From Thalassobaculaceae bacterium (GTDB taxonomy: Bacteria; Pseudomonadota; Alphaproteobacteria; Thalassobaculales; Thalassobaculaceae): a stretch of 64,000 bases of DNA. The DNA is taken from the NCBI GenBank assembly GCA_029212785.1, contig JARGOG010000020.1, positions 1 to 64,000 on the forward strand, given 5' to 3'. The translations under genes were made by a program, and so were the position numbers. Shown here in pieces: positions 2,165 through 11,972 of this stretch (its first letter is position 1; each line of letters begins with the position of its first letter). The notes under the pieces are model-generated. The model was not told the DNA's origin. It made no database searches and saw nothing but the letters and a program-made list of their open reading frames with translations.

Positions 2165-4888
2165 CTATTCGCCCGCCGCCGCCGCTGTCTCGCCCCGCAG
2201 CGGCAGCCGCAGACGGAACCGCGCCCCGCCGCGCCCGGTGCCGCGCCCCGGCTCCGGCAGCAGCTCCAGATCGCCCCCGAGCATGCGGGCGATGCTGCGG
2301 CTGATGGAGAGGCCGAGGCCCGCCCCCGTGCGGTGACCAGGCGTCAACTCCCGGCCGCGGGCGAACTTGGCGAAGATCCGCTCGCGGTCCTCGGCCGGGA
2401 TCCCGGGGCCGTTATCGTCGACATAGGCATAGTAGGTGCCGCCGTCGATGCGGCTGCTGACCGTGACCTGCGGGGCCTCGCTGGTGTTGTACTTGATGGC
2501 GTTGGACAGGATGTTCATGAACACCTGCGCCAGCCGGTCGCCATCGGCGCGGATCGGTGCGACGGCGACGCAGGGACCGTACTCGATATCGACGCCGGCG
2601 CTCGCCGCCATGCCGCGGCTGGTCTCCACCGCATGCTCCAGGATCCGCGCGCCGTCCACATTCTCCAGACGCAGCGCGAACTGACCGCTGTCCAGATGCG
2701 AGACGTCGAGAATCTCGTCCAACAGACGCGACAGGCGCAGGGTCTCGTCCTGGATGATCTTCAGATATTTGCGTGCGCGCTCGGACTCGAGATCCGGATT
2801 ATCGAGCAGGATCTCCGAGAATGAGCGGATCGAGGCCATGGGCGTGCGCACCTCGTGGCTCACCTGGCTCAGGAAGTCGTCCTTCTGGGTGTCGAGCATG
2901 CGCAGTCGCTCGTTGGCGTCCTGCAGCGCCTTGGCGGTGTCCTGCAACTCCTGGGACTTCGCCTCCAGGCGCTGGGAATACTCGATGACCTGCTGGGTCT
3001 CGTCGACCAGGCGGATCAGCTCGTCCAGGCTGATGGTCTCGCCGGTGACCACCTGACTGATCATCACCCGCGCCGAGGCCGCGCCGATGCCGCCGGCCAG
3101 CAGCCGTTCGAGATGGGCGATGAACTCGGCATCGGGACGCGGCATGTCTCCGCCGGTTCCCTGGCGCCGGGCGAATTCGGCGAAGACCCGTTGCGCCTCC
3201 TCGGCGCCCAGAATCCGCTGGGTCATGATGTAGAGATCGTCGACCGTCGCCGAGCGGGTGATGAAGCGGCCCTCGCTCTCCGCCGGATTGCGGAACACGT
3301 CGACGAACAGCGTGCCCTGCAGCCGCTCCAGAGGGTTCTGCTCGCGGATCAGCGAGACGGCGACGAACAGGACCACGTTGAAGGTCATGCTCCAGAACAC
3401 CGAGTGCACCAGAGGGTCGTCGCCCGGAATGCCGAACAGCGCATGCGGCCGGAGCCACCCGATCCCCCAGGGCCCGTATTCCATCAGGCTCTGGGTGATG
3501 AACCACACGCCTTCGAAATTCGGCATGACCAGGGTGTACATCCACATGACGAAGCCGGCGAACATGCCGGCCGCCGCCCCGGCCTTGGAAGCCGAGCGCC
3601 AGTACAGGCCGCCGACCATGGCGGGCAGGATCTGCGCCGCACCGGCAAAGGCGATCAGCCCCATGGCGGCCAGCGCGTCGGACTGGGCGCTGGCGACGAA
3701 ATAGCCGAAGCCGAGCAGTAGCAGCAGCGCGATGCTGACCCGTCGGCTGAACAGCAGCAGGCGTTTCACGTCGCCGCTGATCGCCTCGCTCAGGACCGGC
3801 AGGCGCAGCACGACCGGAATGACGATGTGGTTGGAGACCATGATCGACAGGGCGATGCAGGCGACGATCACCATGGAGGTCGCCGAAGAGAAGCCGCCGA
3901 TGAACGCGAGCAGCGCCAGCGCGTCCTGGCCCTGGGCCATCGGCAGGGTGAGCACGAACATGTCCGGGTTCGACCCCGGCGGCAGCAGCGTCAGCCCGGC
4001 GATGGCGATCGGCAGGATCGAGCAGCACATCAGGAACAGGTACAGCGGAAACAGCCAGGAGGCCGTGCGCAGGTGCCCTTCGTCGGCATTCTCCACCACC
4101 GTCACCTGGAACTGACGCGGCAGGCAGAGAATGGCGGTGCCGGCCAGGAAGGTCATCGTCATCCAGCGCGGGCCGTACACGGTATCGGGGTCGATGACGA
4201 TGGTCGCCCCCGGCATGGCGAACACTTCGTCCAGGCCACCCGCCACGCCGAACACCACGAACCCGCCGACCGCCAGCAAGGCGACCAGCTTGACCAGAGC
4301 CTCGAGCGCGATGGCGGCGACCACGCCGTGATGGCGTTCGTTCGCATCGATGTTGCGGGTGCCGAACAGGATGGTGAAGGCCGCCATGCCGGCGGCCACC
4401 CAGAACGCGGTCGAGACGTCGATCACCGCCTCGTTGCCGGCGCTGCCGACCACCGAGAAGCTGATGGTCACCGCCTTGAGCTGCAGGGCGATATAGGGGG
4501 TGCTCGCGATCACCGCGATGATCGTGACCAGCACGGCGAGTGTCGTGCTCTTGCCGTAGCGCGAGGAGACCAGATCGGCGACCGAGGAGATGCGGTGCAC
4601 CCGGCCGATGCGCACCAGCTTGCGCAGGACGAACCACCAGCCGACGAAGACCAGGGTCGGCCCGAGATAGATGGTGACGAATTCCAGCCCGCTGCGTGCC
4701 GCCGATCCGACGGCGCCGTAGAACGTCCAGGACGTGCAGTAGACCGAGATTGAGAGCGTGTAGATCAGCGGAGAGTGGGCGAGGCCGACCTTGCCGCTGC
4801 GGGCTCGGCGATCGGACACGAAGGCGACCAGGAACAGCAGCGCCACATAGGCGAGTGCGGTGACGAGGACGACGTCGGCCGACAGCAT
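2165..4888 (-). CDS. SSS-type (symporter) sensor histidine kinase
   Basis: 907 residues from the ATG at 4888, which overlaps the upstream TGA (TGATG). An open frame continues upstream to 4990 but lies inside the previous gene. Residues 1-540 form a sodium:solute symporter-like domain with about 13 membrane spans. A coiled-coil linker (about 630-670) leads to a HisKA H-box, QVSHEVRTPMASIRSF, with the phospho-acceptor His near 678. The ATPase domain has an N-box (NILSNAIKYN), G1 (DDNGPGIP) and G2 (GAGLGLSISRS). There is no receiver domain, so a separate regulator is needed. The gene for one lies two genes upstream. Related CbrA-like proteins couple nutrient sensing or transport to gene control; the ligand is unknown. 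Confidence 0.93.
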   Translation of the reverse strand: MLSADVVLVTALAYVALLFLVAFVSDRRARSGKVGLAHSPLIYTLSISVYCTSWTFYGAVGSAARSGLEFVTIYLGPTLVFVGWWFVLRKLVRIGRVHRISSVADLVSSRYGKSTTLAVLVTIIAVIASTPYIALQLKAVTISFSVVGSAGNEAVIDVSTAFWVAAGMAAFTILFGTRNIDANERHHGVVAAIALEALVKLVALLAVGGFVVFGVAGGLDEVFAMPGATIVIDPDTVYGPRWMTMTFLAGTAILCLPRQFQVTVVENADEGHLRTASWLFPLYLFLMCCSILPIAIAGLTLLPPGSNPDMFVLTLPMAQGQDALALLAFIGGFSSATSMVIVACIALSIMVSNHIVIPVVLRLPVLSEAISGDVKRLLLFSRRVSIALLLLLGFGYFVASAQSDALAAMGLIAFAGAAQILPAMVGGLYWRSASKAGAAAGMFAGFVMWMYTLVMPNFEGVWFITQSLMEYGPWGIGWLRPHALFGIPGDDPLVHSVFWSMTFNVVLFVAVSLIREQNPLERLQGTLFVDVFRNPAESEGRFITRSATVDDLYIMTQRILGAEEAQRVFAEFARRQGTGGDMPRPDAEFIAHLERLLAGGIGAASARVMISQVVTGETISLDELIRLVDETQQVIEYSQRLEAKSQELQDTAKALQDANERLRMLDTQKDDFLSQVSHEVRTPMASIRSFSEILLDNPDLESERARKYLKIIQDETLRLSRLLDEILDVSHLDSGQFALRLENVDGARILEHAVETSRGMAASAGVDIEYGPCVAVAPIRADGDRLAQVFMNILSNAIKYNTSEAPQVTVSSRIDGGTYYAYVDDNGPGIPAEDRERIFAKFARGRELTPGHRTGAGLGLSISRSIARMLGGDLELLPEPGRGTGRGGARFRLRLPLRGETAAAAGE

Positions 4889-5145
4889 CAGCCGGCCTCC
4901 CGCTCCGGATAAGTCGGTTCCTCCACCCGCGTGCTCACCCGGCCGGCCCGGCGCGCCATGACCCGGGTGAAGACGATCAACCCGCCCCACACGGCAAAGA
5001 CGTAGACCACGATGCTCGGGATCCCCAGAACCGTCGTCGGCTGGTTCACCACACCGAGCATCGGCGGCATGACCAGCCAGGTTCCGAGCAACACCATCAG
5101 CGCCACGGCATCGCGGATCTTGGTGCGGGTCGGACGCGCGGCCAT
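4888..5145 (-). CDS. small two-span membrane protein accompanying the symporter kinase
   Basis: 85 residues from the ATG at 5145 (a TTG nine bases earlier is possible). A basic N-terminus is followed by two hydrophobic spans (about residues 15-35 and 42-62) and a charged tail. Small proteins of this shape (DUF3311/DUF4212-like) are commonly encoded directly before SSS-family transporters. Here the stop shares a base with the start of the symporter-kinase, so the two are probably translated together. It may be an accessory subunit of the symporter module. Family membership is inferred from shape and position, not from a diagnostic motif. Confidence 0.78.
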   Translation of the reverse strand: MAARPTRTKIRDAVALMVLLGTWLVMPPMLGVVNQPTTVLGIPSIVVYVFAVWGGLIVFTRVMARRAGRVSTRVEEPTYPEREAG

Positions 5146-5167
5146 GATCGTCAAACCGGATCCGGCC

Positions 5168-5536
5168 TCAGGCCGACGCCAGGGTCAGAACCCGTTCGAC
5201 GACCTCGCGGTTGGAGAACGGCTTGGTCACGAAAGCGTCGGCCCCGAGTTCTTCGGCCGTCTTGCGGTCCTTGTCCTGGCCCTTGGCGGTCAGGATCATT
5301 ACCGGCATGCCGTTCAGATCCGGGTTGCTCCTGATCCATTTCAGGACCTCGAACCCGTTCATTTTCGGCAGCATCACATCGAGAATGACAAGGTTCGGCC
5401 GGATCGTCGCGATCTTGTCGATCACCGCCCGGCCATCGAAGACGGCGGTCACCTCGCACCCCTCACGGCTCAAGATGAAGCTCAGGGATTCGACGATGTT
5501 CGGTTCGTCCTCGGCGATTAGCACATGAGCCGCCAC
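5168..5536 (-). CDS. stand-alone receiver (CheY-like response regulator)
   Basis: 122 residues forming a single receiver domain with no output domain. It has the acidic pocket EDE at 9-11, the phospho-acceptor Asp53 in VILDVMLP, the conserved Thr in ILTAKG and Lys in FVTKPF. It starts at GTG 5536, supported by GGAGGAA a few bases upstream. It is the first gene of a three-gene unit (receiver, small membrane protein, symporter-kinase; 22-base gap). This makes it the likely phosphorylation target of that kinase. With no DNA-binding domain, it must signal by protein contact or pass phosphate onward. Confidence 0.92.
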   Translation of the reverse strand: MAAHVLIAEDEPNIVESLSFILSREGCEVTAVFDGRAVIDKIATIRPNLVILDVMLPKMNGFEVLKWIRSNPDLNGMPVMILTAKGQDKDRKTAEELGADAFVTKPFSNREVVERVLTLASA

Positions 5537-5657: not shown

Positions 5658-7244
5658 TCAGTGTGCCTCGCTGCGCACGATCGGCTCTTCCTCGCGATGC
5701 AGGCATTCGATCCGGGGGCAGAGCCGGCAACTCGCCCCGACGCGCGCCGCCATTTCCCGCGCGCTCAGGTCCAAACCGTCGGCGTAGACGGTCTCGTCAG
5801 CGTGGACGGCCTCGCAGGCCAGCATGACCGAATGCAGCACCGGCGGCTCGTGAAAGGTGGCCGGCTGCTTGGTCACGGTGCGTGCGACGAACAGGAAACG
5901 GCCGCGATCGGGGAACTCGGCGAGCTGGCGCACCACCCGGTCCGGCGTCTGGAACGACTGGTAGATCGCCCAGAGCGGGCAGGCATGGCCATAGCGCGGC
6001 AGCGGCAGGCCCGGCAACGGAAAGCGCTTGGTCGCATGTCCCGCCGGATTCGAGCGCAGGAACGCGAACGGAATCCCCTCCGCCCCGCGACGGCGGAGCG
6101 TGATCAGCCGGTGCGCCACCTGCTCGAAGCTGGCGGCATAGCGCTGGCGCAGTACCTCGATATCGTAGCGGCAGTCGACGGCATCCTCCAGAAAGCTGTC
6201 ATAGGGCAGCAGGGCGGCGCTGGCCGCATAAGAGGCGAGCGCGCGGAACGCCTGGGTCCGGGCCGCGTCCGTCGACAACCGCGGGTCGTCGATCTCCCGC
6301 GTGATGCTGTCCCCCAGCGTCAGTTCCGCCGCCACGCGCGCAAGCTGGAACCGCCGGGTCGAGATCGAGGCATTGTCGAGGAACACCAGGGTCCGGCTCT
6401 CCGGCTCGAACCGGCAGTGGTTGCGGAAGCGTTCGCCGGCAGACGGCCGGGTCGTATCGCGCCCACGGTTCACGACGGAGATCCCGTGACGGCGATCGAG
6501 ATAGTCGATCAGCGCGCTCATCATCGTCTCGCCCTGGCGCTCGACCTCGGTCCGCATGGCCGCCGCCGCCGCCTCGACCTCGGGAAAGTGATTGCGCCGT
6601 TCGATCAGGAAATCGTCGACCTCCTCCGCCGGCGTCACCGAGCGGGTATCCGCCTCCGGGACCTCGAAGAAGTCGGTCAGCGCCTGGGCCACGTCGCTCA
6701 GCTTGGCGCTTTCCTCCGTCATCATGCCCTGGAACCGCTTCTGCTGCGCCGCCCCCATGTCGTCGACATTCTCCAGGATCTCCGACACCGACCGGATCGT
6801 GGTGATATGGGTCAGCACCTGGTGGATCAGATCGCCGAGAAACGGGTCGCGGCCCAATCGGTCGGACAGAGCCGCCACCGTCTCCGCCTGGTCGAGATAG
6901 GCGCGGTACAGCGCGAGCATCGACTGCGCCCAGTCGAGGTGGCGGGCGACAAGATCCTGGGCCCCCTCCTCCGGCATCCGGGCCACGCGCAGGCGCGGAT
7001 CCGCCGCCATCTCGTCCAGGTCGTCGATGACCCGGCGTTCGGTGGTGCCGGCCAGGGTCTCGGCATCGAGATCCAGGGCGACGGCGATCCGGTTCAGCAG
7101 TCCTCCCGCGATGTTGCGCTTACTGGCCTCGATCAGATTGAGATAGGACGGCGAGATACCGACCGCCTTGGCGAGGCCGGCCTGGGTCAGGCCCATCTGC
7201 TTGCGCCGCTCGCGAATGCGAAAACCCGCCAGTTCCAGTGCCAT
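5658..7244 (-). CDS. ScfR-type XRE regulator (short-chain acyl-CoA responsive family)
   Basis: 528 residues from ATG 7244 (AGAGGG upstream). An N-terminal XRE helix-turn-helix (about 5-62, with GLTQAGLAKAVGISPSYLN) is followed by a helical region, an IrrE/M78-like region and a C-terminal cysteine cluster CRLCPRIEC typical of the RamB/PrpR/MccR (ScfR) architecture. The position where M78 proteases carry HExxH reads RVAAELTLGDS, so no protease motif is seen. Residues about 143-190 (HITTIRSVSEILEN...EESAKL) resemble a HisKA dimerisation helix pair. ScfR proteins usually control propionate, acetate or methylcitrate genes. This one faces a Liv-type importer across a 264-base regulatory region. Confidence 0.85.
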   Translation of the reverse strand: MALELAGFRIRERRKQMGLTQAGLAKAVGISPSYLNLIEASKRNIAGGLLNRIAVALDLDAETLAGTTERRVIDDLDEMAADPRLRVARMPEEGAQDLVARHLDWAQSMLALYRAYLDQAETVAALSDRLGRDPFLGDLIHQVLTHITTIRSVSEILENVDDMGAAQQKRFQGMMTEESAKLSDVAQALTDFFEVPEADTRSVTPAEEVDDFLIERRNHFPEVEAAAAAMRTEVERQGETMMSALIDYLDRRHGISVVNRGRDTTRPSAGERFRNHCRFEPESRTLVFLDNASISTRRFQLARVAAELTLGDSITREIDDPRLSTDAARTQAFRALASYAASAALLPYDSFLEDAVDCRYDIEVLRQRYAASFEQVAHRLITLRRRGAEGIPFAFLRSNPAGHATKRFPLPGLPLPRYGHACPLWAIYQSFQTPDRVVRQLAEFPDRGRFLFVARTVTKQPATFHEPPVLHSVMLACEAVHADETVYADGLDLSAREMAARVGASCRLCPRIECLHREEEPIVRSEAH

Positions 7245-7330
7245 TCCCGTCCCTCTCCGTACCCTCCGACAGGTTGGAAGACACACCCGTCTGTCACAAA
7301 TTTACACTTTTGCAGGTGCGTTGTGTATCA

Positions 7331-7350
7331 AATTGACAAAATAGTCAATT
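7331..7350. promoter_or_regulatory. perfect inverted repeat AATTGAC-N6-GTCAATT
   Basis: Two perfect 7-base arms separated by AAAATA, inside the AT-rich divergent region between the ScfR regulator and the Liv importer. This is the size and symmetry of a dimeric repressor site. It also contains TTGACA, a good -35 box for the plus strand, and TTGACT for the minus strand, so a bound protein could block either promoter. Which regulator binds is unknown. Confidence 0.5.
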
Positions 7351-7366
7351 CAAAACAATAACTTAG

Positions 7367-7395
7367 TTTGCAAATTTTCACATACCCTCTACAGT
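7367..7395 (+). promoter_or_regulatory. predicted promoter of the Liv operon with overlapping TTTGCAAA site
   Basis: TTTGCA (7367-7372), a 17-base spacer and TACAGT (7390-7395) form a plausible sigma-70 promoter about 110 bases before the binding-protein start. The -35 box lies inside the perfect palindrome TTTGCAAA (7367-7374). A half match, TTTTGCA, lies at 7307-7313. TTTGCAAA-type sequences are, from memory, the core of RamB/PrpR-family operators, so control by the neighbouring ScfR protein is a reasonable inference. Not tested. Confidence 0.45.
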
Positions 7396-7508
7396 CGTAG
7401 TGCCGCCGACCGGGTTCCGAGTGTCGCATGCGTCATCAGGGCCGTCATACAGATCGAACAGAGATCGAAAGAGACGCGGCAGGGACGAAGACCGAACGGG
7501 AGGAACCA

Positions 7509-8855
7509 ATGACCGTTTTCAATAAGGGCGTCTCACGCCGCTCGCTGATGAAGGGGGGCGTGGCACTGACAGCCGGCCTCGCCGCGCCGCACTTCTTTAC
7601 GAAAGGCGCGTATGCCTATCTGAACGAACCCAAGGGCGGCAGCGTCACCCTCGGCTTCAACGTGCCGCAGTCCGGCGCCTATGCCGACGAGGGTGCGGAC
7701 GAACTTCGCGCCTACCAGCTCGCCGTCAAGCACATCAACGGCGAGGGTGACGGCGGCATGCTGAACACCTTCACGTCCAAGGCGCTGAAGGGCAATGGCA
7801 TCCTCGGCAAGAAGGTCGAGTACGTCACGGGCGACACCCAGACCAAGTCCGACGCCGCCCGTGCCTCCGCCAAGCGGATGATCGAAAAGGACGGCGTCGT
7901 GATGGTGACCGGTGGTTCGTCCTCCGGCGTGGCCATCGCGGTGCAGTCGCTGTGCCAGGAAGCCGGCATCATCTTCATGGCCGGTCTGACGCACTCCAAC
8001 GACACCACCGGCAAGGACCGCCGTGCCAACGGCTTCCGTCACTTCTTCAACGCCTATCAGTCCGGTGCCGCCCTGGCTCCGGTGCTCGAGGCGAATTATG
8101 GCAAGGACCGCAAGGCCTACCACCTGACGGCCGACTACACCTGGGGCTGGACCCAGGAAGAGTCGATCGCCAATGCGACCGAGGCCCTTGGCTGGCAGAC
8201 CGTGAACAAGGTCCGCACGCCGCTCGGCGCCGGTGACTTCTCGCAGTACATCACGCCGGTGCTGAATTCCGGCGCCGACGTGCTGATCCTGAACCACTAC
8301 GGCAAGGACATGGTCAACTCGCTGACCCAGGCCGTGCAGTTCGGCCTGCGTGACAAGCAGGTCAACGGCAAGGACTTCGTCATCGTTGTGCCGCTCTACA
8401 GCCGTCTGATGGCTCAGGGTGCCGGCGAGAACGTGAAGGGGATCTTCGGGTCGACCAACTGGCACTGGTCGCTGAGCGACGAGGGCTCCCAGGCCTTCGT
8501 GAAGTCGTTCGGCGCCGAGTACGGCTTCCCGCCGTCCCAGGCCGCTCATACCTGCTATGTGCAGACCCTGCTCTATGCCGACGCGGCCGAGCGGGCGGGC
8601 ACCTTCGCTCCCTGCGATCTCGGCAAGGCCCTTGAGGGCTTCGAGTTCGATGGCATGGGCAACGGTCCGACCCTGTACCGCGCCGACGATCACCAGTGCT
8701 TCAAGAAGGTGCTGGTCGTGAAGGGTAAGGAGAACCCGTCCTCGCAGTTCGACCTTCTGGAAGTCGTCCAGGAAGTCCCGCGCGAGCAGGTCACCTACGA
8801 CGCGAACATCCCGCAGTTCGCCGGCAGCCTCGGCAGCTGCAACAACGGCGCCTGA
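7509..8855 (+). CDS. Liv-type ABC transporter substrate-binding protein
   Basis: 448 residues from ATG 7509, preceded by GGGAGGAA; the frame is open further upstream but lacks a ribosome-binding site there. The N-terminus has a twin-arginine signal (SRRSLMKGG) followed by a hydrophobic stretch ending near residue 36, so it is probably exported folded by Tat. The mature part is a type I periplasmic-binding fold like LivJ (TLGFNVPQSGAYADEGADEL near the start, then DTQTKSD and GGSSSGVAIA). It is first in an SBP-livHMGF operon. Branched-chain amino acids, amides or short organic acids are all possible ligands. The adjacent ScfR-type regulator hints at an organic-acid link. Confidence 0.9.
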   Translation: MTVFNKGVSRRSLMKGGVALTAGLAAPHFFTKGAYAYLNEPKGGSVTLGFNVPQSGAYADEGADELRAYQLAVKHINGEGDGGMLNTFTSKALKGNGILGKKVEYVTGDTQTKSDAARASAKRMIEKDGVVMVTGGSSSGVAIAVQSLCQEAGIIFMAGLTHSNDTTGKDRRANGFRHFFNAYQSGAALAPVLEANYGKDRKAYHLTADYTWGWTQEESIANATEALGWQTVNKVRTPLGAGDFSQYITPVLNSGADVLILNHYGKDMVNSLTQAVQFGLRDKQVNGKDFVIVVPLYSRLMAQGAGENVKGIFGSTNWHWSLSDEGSQAFVKSFGAEYGFPPSQAAHTCYVQTLLYADAAERAGTFAPCDLGKALEGFEFDGMGNGPTLYRADDHQCFKKVLVVKGKENPSSQFDLLEVVQEVPREQVTYDANIPQFAGSLGSCNNGA

Positions 8856-8929: not shown

Positions 8930-9024
8930 ACTTGCCCGTTCCGGCACCGTTCACCCCATGGTCGAACAGGGTCGGGACCCGCATACTTCTAGCAATCCTG
9001 CATACCCGGAGGGGGGACTGCGTC

Positions 9025-10041
9025 ATGGACGCGATCGTTCTGCAATTCCTGGACGGGCTCGCGAAGGGCGGCAACTACGCGTTGATCGCCCTTGGGCTGA
9101 CCCTGATCTTCGGCACACTCGGCGTCGTGAACTTCGCCCATGGGGCGCTGTTCATGCTCGGAGCCTTCTGTGCCGTGACTGTCCAGAAGCTGCTGACGCT
9201 GTCGGAAAGGGTGAAGGACGAGAGCATCACCTTCTTCGACGCCTACAAGGAGATTCCCTATCTGGAGACGTGGTTCGGTGACACCGGACACATGCTCATC
9301 GACTATTCGGTGCCGATATCGCTGCTCGCCGCCATACCGGTCATGCTTCTGATCGGACTGGCCATGGAGCGCGGCCTGATCCGGTTCTTCTACCACCGCT
9401 CCCACGCCGAACAGATCCTCGTGACCTTCGGCCTCGCGATCGTACTGCAGGAACTGGTTAAGGCGCAGTTCGGCGCCAACCCGATCCCCACACCGGCCCC
9501 CGAAGTCGTCGCCGGCAGCCTGGATATCGGCGTCTGGTTCAACGTCGAGGGAAGCATCGTCTACCCGTATTGGCGCCTGATCTATCTCGCCTTTTCGACC
9601 GTGGTCATTTCCGCGGTGTTCGCCTTCCTGCAGTTCACCACTTTCGGCATGGTCGTGCGCGCCGGTATGCAGGACCGGGAGACGGTCGGGCTGCTTGGGA
9701 TCAACGTCCAGCGACGCTTCACCATCGTCTTCGGGATCGCGGTGATCGTCGCCGGTCTGGCGGGCGTGATGTACACGCCGATCCAGTCGCCCGACTACCA
9801 CATGGGCATGGATTTCCTGGTGCTGTCCTTCGTGGTCGTCGTCGTCGGCGGCATGGGCTCGCTTCCGGGCGCCGTCCTCGCCGGCTTCCTGCTCGGCGTC
9901 TTGCAGTCCTTCGCCTCGATGAACGAGGTGAAGTCCATCATTCCCGGCATTGACCAGGTCATCATCTACCTCGTCGCCGTGATCGTTCTACAAGTCCGTC
10001 CTCGTGGCCTGCTGGGTCGCAAGGGCGTGATGGAGGGTTAA
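9025..10041 (+). CDS. livH: Liv-type ABC transporter permease LivH
   Basis: 338 residues from ATG 9025, preceded by GGAGGGGGG. It is a polytopic inner-membrane protein with the LivH pattern GGNYALIALGLTLIFG...VNFAHGALFMLGAF at the N-terminus and the conserved GGMGSLPGAVLAGFLLG near residue 275. Compared with typical LivH (about 300 residues) it carries an insert of about 35 residues (roughly 60-95, rich in charged and aromatic residues) between early membrane spans. It pairs with LivM to form the pore and is three bases from livM. Confidence 0.93.
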   Translation: MDAIVLQFLDGLAKGGNYALIALGLTLIFGTLGVVNFAHGALFMLGAFCAVTVQKLLTLSERVKDESITFFDAYKEIPYLETWFGDTGHMLIDYSVPISLLAAIPVMLLIGLAMERGLIRFFYHRSHAEQILVTFGLAIVLQELVKAQFGANPIPTPAPEVVAGSLDIGVWFNVEGSIVYPYWRLIYLAFSTVVISAVFAFLQFTTFGMVVRAGMQDRETVGLLGINVQRRFTIVFGIAVIVAGLAGVMYTPIQSPDYHMGMDFLVLSFVVVVVGGMGSLPGAVLAGFLLGVLQSFASMNEVKSIIPGIDQVIIYLVAVIVLQVRPRGLLGRKGVMEG

Positions 10042-10044
10042 CCG

Positions 10045-11202
10045 ATGGCCCCGACCGTGTCCGCAATCGGTGGCAGTGCCCGCACCGACTTCATCTTCAT
10101 GATGCTGTTCGCCGCCGCCGTCCTGACCGCCCCGTTCTGGGCGAGCTTCATCGGCGCCGGCTACCCCGATCTGCTGCAGAAATGGGCGATCTACGGCCTG
10201 TTCGCGATCGGCTTCAACATTCTGTTCGGCCTCACCGGCTATCTGTCCTTCGGCCATGCGGCGTTTCTCGGCATCGGCTCTTACGCCGCCGTGTGGTCGT
10301 TCAAGCTGCTGACCATGAATGTATTGCCGGCGATCGCCTTCGCGATCCTGTTTTCGGCTCTGTTCGCGCTGGCGATCGGCTATATCAGCCTGCGGCGAAC
10401 CGGCATCTACTTCTCGATCCTGACCCTGGCTTTCGCCCAGATGTCGTACAACCTCGCCTATTCGGTCCTCACGCCGATCACCAACGGCGAGACCGGTCTC
10501 AAGGTGATCCCGACCGACCCTCGGATCCTTGAGGAACTGGCCGGGGTACGGAACACGGCGGTGGCACCGACCACTTCGCTGTTCGGCGTCGAGATGACCG
10601 GGTATCCGGGCTTCTACTTCTGCGCGGTGATCCTGATCATCGGCTTCTTCATCGCCATGAAGATCGCGCGGTCGCCCTTCGGCACCATGCTCAAGGCGAT
10701 CAAGTCGAACCAGACGCGGATGAACTACACCGGGTTCAACACTCGCCCTTATACGCTGGCCGCCTTCGTGATCTCCGGCATGTATGCCGGTATGGCAGGC
10801 GCCCTGCTGGCATCGACCGACCCGCTCGCCGGGGCGGAGCGCATGCAGTGGACCGCGTCCGGCGAGGTGGTGCTGATGACCATTCTCGGCGGTGCGGGGA
10901 CGCTGCTCGGCCCGGTTCTCGGCGCCGCGGTGATCAAGTATTTCGAGAACATCTTCTCGGCCTTCAACGAGCAGGTGCTCAACGCCATGTTCTCCTTCCT
11001 GCCGGAGGTACTGAAGGAAGGCGCCGTGGCAGTCGCGGGTCTGTTCGTCGGCGAAGGCTGGCACCTGACCCTCGGCGTGGTCTTCATGCTGATCGTCATC
11101 TTCCTGCCCGGCGGGATCATGGAAGGCATCCGCCGGGTGCATAAGCTGTTCAAACGCTCCGACGGCTCGTCCCGTTCGGGCGCCGCCGCCGAATCTGCCT
11201 GA
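10045..11202 (+). CDS. livM: Liv-type ABC transporter permease LivM
   Basis: 385 residues, polytopic. It has the LivM signature region [21 protein letters not shown] near residue 65 and [17 protein letters not shown] near 280. It is the partner of the LivH protein encoded three bases upstream, forming the heterodimeric membrane channel. The length is slightly over the usual 320-360, with a C-terminal extension of positively charged residues. The start is supported by GGAGGG upstream of ATG 10045. The substrate is set by the binding protein, which is not identified. Confidence 0.93.
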
Positions 11203-11216
11203 GGGAGAGCGGGACC

Positions 11217-11972
11217 ATGTCGATCCTTACCGTCCAGGGCGTGAATAAATCCTTCGCCGGCCTGAAGGCGCTCAACCAAGTCAATCTCAAGGTCGAGCAG
11301 GGCCATGTCCACGCCATCATCGGCCCCAACGGCGCCGGCAAATCGACGCTGCTGAACTGCTTCGTCGGCCGACTGGAACCGGATACAGGCACCGTCATGT
11401 TCGACGGCAACTCGCTGCTGAACCGCCGGCCGCACGAGATCAACCAGCTCGGCGTCGCCCGGGTGTTCCAGACCCCGGAGATCTTCCCGGACCTCTCCCT
11501 GCTGGAGAACGTGATGATCCCGGCCTTCGCCCATCGTGACGGCGCGTTCAAGCTGAACTGGCTGCCGCGCATCGATGGCGAGGCGGAAATCCGCGACAAG
11601 GCCGAGCACATTCTCGAAGATGTCGGCCTCGCCGACAACCGATCCGACCATGCCGGAGCGCTGTCGCGCGGCGACAAGCGGCGCCTGGAGCTCGCCATGT
11701 GTTTGGTCCAGGAACCGCGCTTGCTGCTGCTCGACGAACCGACAGCCGGCATGTCGCGGGCCGATACCAACAGCACCATCGACCTGCTGAAGCGGATCGG
11801 CGAGCGCGGGATCACCAAGATCGTGATCGAGCACGACATGCATGTCGTGTTCTCGCTGGCCCACAGGGTCTCCGTCCTGGCCCAGGGCACCGTTATCGCC
11901 GAGGGCACACCGGAGGAGATCCGGGCCAACCCCAAGGTGCAGGAAGCCTATCTGGGCGGCGCCCACCTGTAG
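11217..11972 (+). CDS. livG: Liv-type ABC transporter ATP-binding protein LivG
   Basis: 251 residues. Walker A GPNGAGKST is near residue 38 and Walker B LLLLDEPTAG near 172. The signature region reads LSRGDKRRLELA rather than the usual LSxGQ(Q/R)R, a modest departure in the ABC signature. The length and the extended helical region after Walker A fit LivG. It energises the LivHM channel together with LivF. The ribosome-binding site GGGAGAG precedes ATG 11217, and livF follows 20 bases later. Confidence 0.93.
   Translation: MSILTVQGVNKSFAGLKALNQVNLKVEQGHVHAIIGPNGAGKSTLLNCFVGRLEPDTGTVMFDGNSLLNRRPHEINQLGVARVFQTPEIFPDLSLLENVMIPAFAHRDGAFKLNWLPRIDGEAEIRDKAEHILEDVGLADNRSDHAGALSRGDKRRLELAMCLVQEPRLLLLDEPTAGMSRADTNSTIDLLKRIGERGITKIVIEHDMHVVFSLAHRVSVLAQGTVIAEGTPEEIRANPKVQEAYLGGAHL

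Follow-up and report, generated by a model that had tools for sequence, protein, structure and literature searches.

A histidine-kinase DHp hairpin within an alphaproteobacterial ScfR regulator suggests a direct connection to a neighboring two-component system

An ScfR-family regulator encoded in a 64,000-nucleotide stretch of a Thalassobaculaceae genome (contig JARGOG010000020.1; the whole stretch analyzed is hereafter called the window) carries, between its helix-turn-helix (HTH) domain and its putative acyl-CoA sensor, a segment (residues about 133–195) that profile comparisons across its relatives identify as a genuine histidine-kinase DHp (HisKA) hairpin. As judged from its domain content, the protein is of a known kind (ScfR) and is not a kinase; the new part is the HisKA homology, which is established via the relatives. 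The presence of a copied piece of a kinase, including the phosphate-accepting residue, suggests that this regulator takes orders directly from a two-component system. A preliminary description of this DNA had called a DHp module in a DNA-binding protein unusual, and we concur. Our literature search yielded no account of a DHp/HisKA segment in any ScfR. The features discussed below are collected in Table 1.

Table 1. Features of the regulator locus and its surroundings (window coordinates)
Feature	Position	Strand	Basis
ScfR-family regulator with putatively captured DHp domain, 528 aa	5658..7244	-	ORF, Pfam
HTH_3 DNA-binding domain, residues 10-62	7059..7217	-	Pfam
DHp (HisKA-like) insert, residues about 133-195	6660..6848	-	Profiles, alignment, helix prediction
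His141, aligned with phosphoacceptor His	6822..6824	-	Alignment
M78/IrrE-like region without HExxH, residues 264-380	6105..6455	-	Pfam (Peptidase_M78)
ScfRs C-terminal domain, residues 382-524, including four Cys	5673..6101	-	Pfam
122-aa stand-alone receiver (REC) lacking an output domain; D10, D53, T83, K105 present	5168..5536	-	
88-aa small protein with no family match, in many loci encoded between REC and kinase	4888..5154	-	
Histidine kinase, 907 aa: transporter-like N-terminus, HisKA 668-735 with His678, HATPase_c	2165..4888	-	
Divergent ABC-transporter substrate-binding protein (Peripla_BP_6)	7509..8855	+	
Permeases and ATPase of this Urt/Liv-like ABC transporter	9022..11972	+	
TTTGCAAA, candidate operator in the divergent promoter region	7367..7374	.	

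Assignment of the window protein to the ScfR family (PF09856) follows from its C-terminal ScfRs domain (154 bits in Pfam vs. a curated cut-off of 24), an N-terminal XRE-type HTH (HTH_3, E 3e-12), and four cysteines (C422, C506, C509, and C514) that match the [4Fe4S] ligands (C-X2-C-X4-C plus an upstream Cys) and are kept in 57–58 of 59 aligned relatives. Its best solved relative in a PDB search is Mycobacterium tuberculosis PrpR, with the match starting at window residue 193. PrpR and RamB (ScfR proteins of the "IsaR" type) share with the regulator the HTH, an IrrE-like domain devoid of HExxH, a GAF-like domain, and the four [4Fe4S] cysteines, but do not have the DHp insert. By analogy with MtPrpR and with RamB of P. 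denitrificans, we infer that the window regulator binds acyl-CoA. According to PMC10370305, Pden_1785 clusters with a two-component system. The HExxH motif of M78 metallopeptidases is absent from the window regulator, as had been pointed out in the preliminary description, and a protease reading was rejected on this ground, the situation being the same in MtPrpR, in which conservation does not extend to the IrrE metal-site residues (PMC6765138, section 15). Because MtPrpR is likewise without those residues and HExxH was seen in just one of the 59 relatives (L049), its absence is ordinary for an ScfR and carries no weight. In a few DHp-containing ScfRs (L047–L050 and L071), the M78/IrrE-like region is undetected or falls under the Pfam cut-off, with no loss of the His141 counterpart or of the four Fe-S cysteines.

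The insert is predicted to form two helices (residues 134–158 and 165–194). A HisKA-like two-helix segment between the HTH and the IrrE-like region had been proposed earlier at residues 143–190, and it proved real, with somewhat wider boundaries, by the HisKA matches of relatives and by profile; the HITTIRSVSEIL and EESAKL stretches on which the proposal drew are located at residues 146–157 and 177–182, respectively. The corresponding HisKA profile search gave a divided outcome. Neither the full-length window protein (at E ≤ 10) nor its excised segment matched PF00512 in Pfam; kinase models and chains did align on the window segment in the correct register with weak E-values (CreC, 0.014; DivL, 0.025; HK853, 0.48). 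We have assembled a sample of 59 segment-bearing proteins (comprising the window protein, seven from named or MAG records, and the rest from class and phylum genome samples), and a profile of the first 42 segments retrieved HK853 (E 3e-6) and DivL (0.0011) from the PDB. Taken singly, 22 of these 42 excised segments matched HisKA at E ≤ 0.01 (best 3.8e-11), and among 20 full-length proteins scanned, HisKA appeared in 13 at the E-value limits used, with L064, L065, L067, and L069 exceeding the Pfam cut-off. Thus, by sequence comparison, the window copy is one that has diverged beyond the reach of the Pfam model, the same insert passing the cut-off in relatives. Matches of the 42-segment profile to Protein A in the PDB, which involve repeated domains at about 10 bits each, were treated as chance.

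Comparison with other ScfRs, another check envisaged in the preliminary description, supports an insertion. HisKA was matched by none of nine classical ScfRs at E ≤ 1 (Pfam), and a classical ScfR paralogue from the same genome matches the protein before and after the segment but leaves residues 134–182 and 191–202 unpaired; compared with classical ScfRs, therefore, the DHp is cleanly inserted. A chance resemblance to DHp domains was rejected on the combined evidence of the 42-segment profile, the 22 single-segment HisKA matches, the shuffled-sequence comparison given below, and the absence of HisKA from the nine classical proteins. Structural comparison, for which a lack of any match to HisKA was named beforehand as telling against the proposal, placed HK853 chains among the top Foldseek matches of the hairpin (ranks 3, 4, 9, and 14) at an E-value of about 1. 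The VIA-align Z of about 7 is a score common to many unrelated hairpins, so that the fold comparison was given no evidential weight, and the full-length AF2 model of the regulator (pLDDT 56) is of too low a quality to be used. Since a helical hairpin makes fold searches indecisive, sequence profiles decide instead. The Pfam matches of the regulator do not include HATPase_c, and this, together with the decay of the H-box described below, means that the protein cannot be a kinase.

The phosphoacceptor is aligned not with His146, as first proposed, but with His141, which lies within FLGDLIHQVLT just upstream of HITTIRSVSEIL. This position is occupied by His in 54 of the 59 collected proteins (94% after down-weighting of close relatives), by Phe in three, and by Gln in two, and it ranks fifth in conservation among 62 positions, vs. 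42nd for H+1 and 60th for H+5. In the window H-box, Q142 and H146 replace the acid and the Pro of H-E-x-x-T-P; across 58 aligned rows (the fragment L026, incomplete at its start, was left out of these counts and of the DHp tree), the H+1 acid is D or E in 18, and the H-box Pro is found in register in none. Residue H+4 is T, S, or N in 59/59, and I156, F171, and L182 of the hairpin are invariant (59/59). The five substitutions at the His position (Gln in L058/L059, Phe in L068/L070/L072) fall into two lineages, in which the hairpin is retained and the kinase is present in the genomes. His is kept in all 46 loci with a kinase in the fetched stretch vs. eight of the 13 without; the notion that its loss marks a missing kinase was not upheld, as all five His-less genomes hold the kinase. 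A dimer switch operating without phosphorylation, the function originally suggested, appears doubtful with the His so widely kept and with a kinase and a receiver encoded in the same operon; it is possible in the Phe and Gln lineages, where the hairpin may function through docking only.

The regulator is accompanied by the stand-alone receiver, the small protein (provisionally labeled DUF4212), and the kinase, a gene order (ScfR, stand-alone REC, small protein, kinase) that recurs across loci. The N-terminus of the kinase matches the monocarboxylate permease MctP (6e-10) and the solved histidine kinase 10ed (1e-71), and the Pfam SSF model gave no match on the window kinase; from these two matches and by analogy with CrbS and CbrA, we presume it to be of the SLC5 type. 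The H-box acid and Pro are conserved in 54/54 of the SLC5-type kinases. In the receivers, Asp53 is kept in 55/55 and no C-terminal extension exceeds 27 aa, so that no output domain is present. Among the 59 fetched loci, 46 include the kinase and 47 the receiver, on the same strand and downstream in 44 and 45 cases, respectively. Of the 13 loci with no kinase in the fetched stretch, 12 belong to genomes that hold it elsewhere or nearby, the only exception being G064. The same locus (DHp-containing ScfR, receiver, kinase, and divergent ABC transporter) is found on a plasmid of Neorhizobium sp. SOG26 (L135:6480-11511).

Within 289 genomes of the class, a DHp-containing ScfR was detected in at least 35 and a full-length kinase of the SLC5 type in 39. 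Among the matches listed, at least 34 genomes have both, one has the regulator only (G064), five have the kinase only, and 249 have neither; these genomes are related, and no P-value is attached to the counts. Among 398 genomes of the phylum, eight non-alphaproteobacterial genomes gave a match, and all of the matches listed for them begin at residue 193 or later, which indicates, at the level of sequence, that they are classical ScfRs. Some of the genomes with the kinase and no DHp-containing ScfR show other arrangements. In G056, the kinase has as its neighbor a response regulator whose output domain is of the LuxR type (GerE; L137:4535-5200, - strand), in addition to a stand-alone receiver. 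Three more genomes encode, near the receiver and kinase, a protein combining PAS, a degenerate DHp-like segment, and a DnaQ-type exonuclease domain (PF00929), at L138:2581-5283 (+), L140:2759-5341 (+), and L139:8433-10511 (-); HisKA was matched by L139 (5e-4) and L140 (0.011) and not by L138, and the true starts in L138 and L140 are probably downstream of the ORF start. With it, operons of this kind provide a second example of a DHp-like module.

Several comparisons connect the insert with the neighboring kinase. The window DHp scores 87 against the DHp of that kinase, vs. a mean of 24.0 and a maximum of 46 in 2000 shuffles, and it reaches no more than 61 against any of the 28 other kinase DHps encoded in the genome. 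In all 46 loci with a full kinase match, the SLC5-type kinase of the same locus ranks first against those 28 other DHps. When the DHp of L064 was used as a query, the SLC5-type kinase was the best non-ScfR match in 6/6 genomes having that kinase (in G079, 3.6e-17 vs. 4.6e-6 for the next kinase), the seventh genome searched being G064, which is 68% complete and yielded no such kinase at E ≤ 1e-30. A tree of 140 DHps places the 58 ScfR DHps in one group (support 100/100) adjoining the SLC5-type kinases; whether they nest inside the kinase DHps was not decided by the AU test (p 0.307). The simplest reading is that the DHp was captured once, from the SLC5-type partner kinase, because the insert is missing from classical ScfRs.

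The positions associated with partner specificity follow the same trend. Counts at these positions (including L026, which is out of register) are 50/59 in ScfRs, 53/54 in SLC5-type kinases, and 0/28 in other kinases for Arg at H+10; 53/59, 43/54, and 1/28 for Ser at H+11; and 59/59, 50/54, and 4/28 for Ile at H+15. By this measure, the specificity positions of the regulator DHp resemble those of the SLC5-type kinase and not those of other kinases of the genome. In HK853, the set of rewired residues (title of 4jau) includes H+8, H+11, and H+15.

Taken as a whole, these observations are best explained, and rather probably so, by a single pathway that comprises the captured DHp, the kinase, the receiver, and the regulator. 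The SLC5-type kinase would phosphorylate the stand-alone receiver, and we infer that the latter, having no output domain, then engages the captured hairpin situated between HTH and acyl-CoA sensor. Its mode of action would be docking, probably joined in most lineages by phosphate transfer to or from His141. Dimer geometry, and hence DNA binding, would change as a result, such that an extracellular or transport signal could be added to the intracellular acyl-CoA signal (and to Fe-S sensing). We propose the route from kinase via receiver to captured DHp because receivers naturally bind a DHp surface and because DivL offers a precedent. ChpT and Spo0B, DHp-fold histidine phosphotransfer proteins, use the hairpin for phosphotransfer without kinase activity, and to our knowledge neither is fused to a DNA-binding regulator. 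In DivL of Caulobacter, which is among the PDB chains matched, the DHp receives a stand-alone receiver, docking DivK~P without catalysis; unlike our regulator, DivL has a CA domain, is a kinase relative rather than a transcription factor, and has Tyr in place of His (PMC4211667). CrbS/CrbR and other SLC5 (SLC5/STAC) systems share with this locus a kinase whose transporter-like sensor is tied to short carboxylate metabolism; CrbR, however, itself activates acs transcription, whereas here the receiver is without an output domain and the ScfR would be the DNA-binding partner. A stricter version, in which a phosphorelay starts at the SLC5 kinase, passes via the receiver, and ends in phosphorylation of the regulator at His141, the regulator integrating phosphorelay, acyl-CoA, and Fe-S inputs and its specificity having come with the captured DHp, is offered tentatively, as a possibility that falls somewhat short of an even chance.

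The decay of the H-box acid and Pro and the replacement of His by Phe or Gln in five of the 59 proteins are compatible with the captured DHp being a dimerization module only, which strengthens or tunes DNA-binding dimers with no receiver contact and no phosphate; so are the invariant I156, F171, and L182, which are probably core positions. A pure dimerization module, however, needs no phosphoacceptor, and the retention of His141 as one of the most conserved positions while H+1 and H+5 vary tells against a phosphorylation-free role, as do the kinase-like residues retained at the partner-specificity positions and the near-obligate co-occurrence with one type of kinase, and we regard this explanation as unlikely.

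Phosphate chemistry may also run in the opposite direction, with the DHp binding or dephosphorylating the receiver, so that an acyl-CoA-reporting regulator would limit signaling to another, unlinked receiver output. The H+4 residue, invariably T, S, or N, occupies the position used by phosphatase-competent HisKA domains, but the acidic residue of their E/D-x-x-T/N motif is present in only 18/58, and no other output for the receiver was identified in these loci. DivL does show (PMC4211667) that DHp domains can receive information; overall, such a backward action seems improbable. Even less credit is due to direct phosphorylation of His141 by the catalytic domain of the kinase with the receiver bypassed: the best-matching DHp is indeed that kinase's own, but the H-box acid and Pro, universal in the kinases, have decayed in the regulators, and the output-less receiver of the operon would be left without a role, which makes this route very improbable. 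The pathway from kinase via receiver to captured DHp remains our preferred explanation.

The probable target of the regulator is the divergent uptake-transporter operon. A Peripla_BP_6 binding protein was found in 46 of the 59 loci (the window protein being 63–97% identical to those of the 45 others), and the Urt/Liv-like transporter scores far under urea-transporter cut-offs; in L064, the divergent gene encodes a sodium/monocarboxylate-type symporter instead. The boxes TTTGTAAA or TTTACAAA occur upstream of the regulator in 33/59 loci, vs. five occurrences of the commonest 8-mer in one shuffled set, and the intergenic region of the window (7245–7500) contains the closely similar TTTGCAAA as a candidate operator.

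Overall, output-less stand-alone receivers are common, and their route to transcription is often obscure; here, this route appears readable from sequence, with the regulator carrying what would be a copy of the kinase surface already recognized by the receiver. Through such a capture, evolution would have had a simple means of linking a metabolite-sensing regulator to two-component signaling, and the idea is testable in cultured alphaproteobacteria, e.g., Thalassobaculum litoreum (L034). The analysis also refines the annotation of a branch that has been labeled only as short-chain fatty acyl-CoA regulators.
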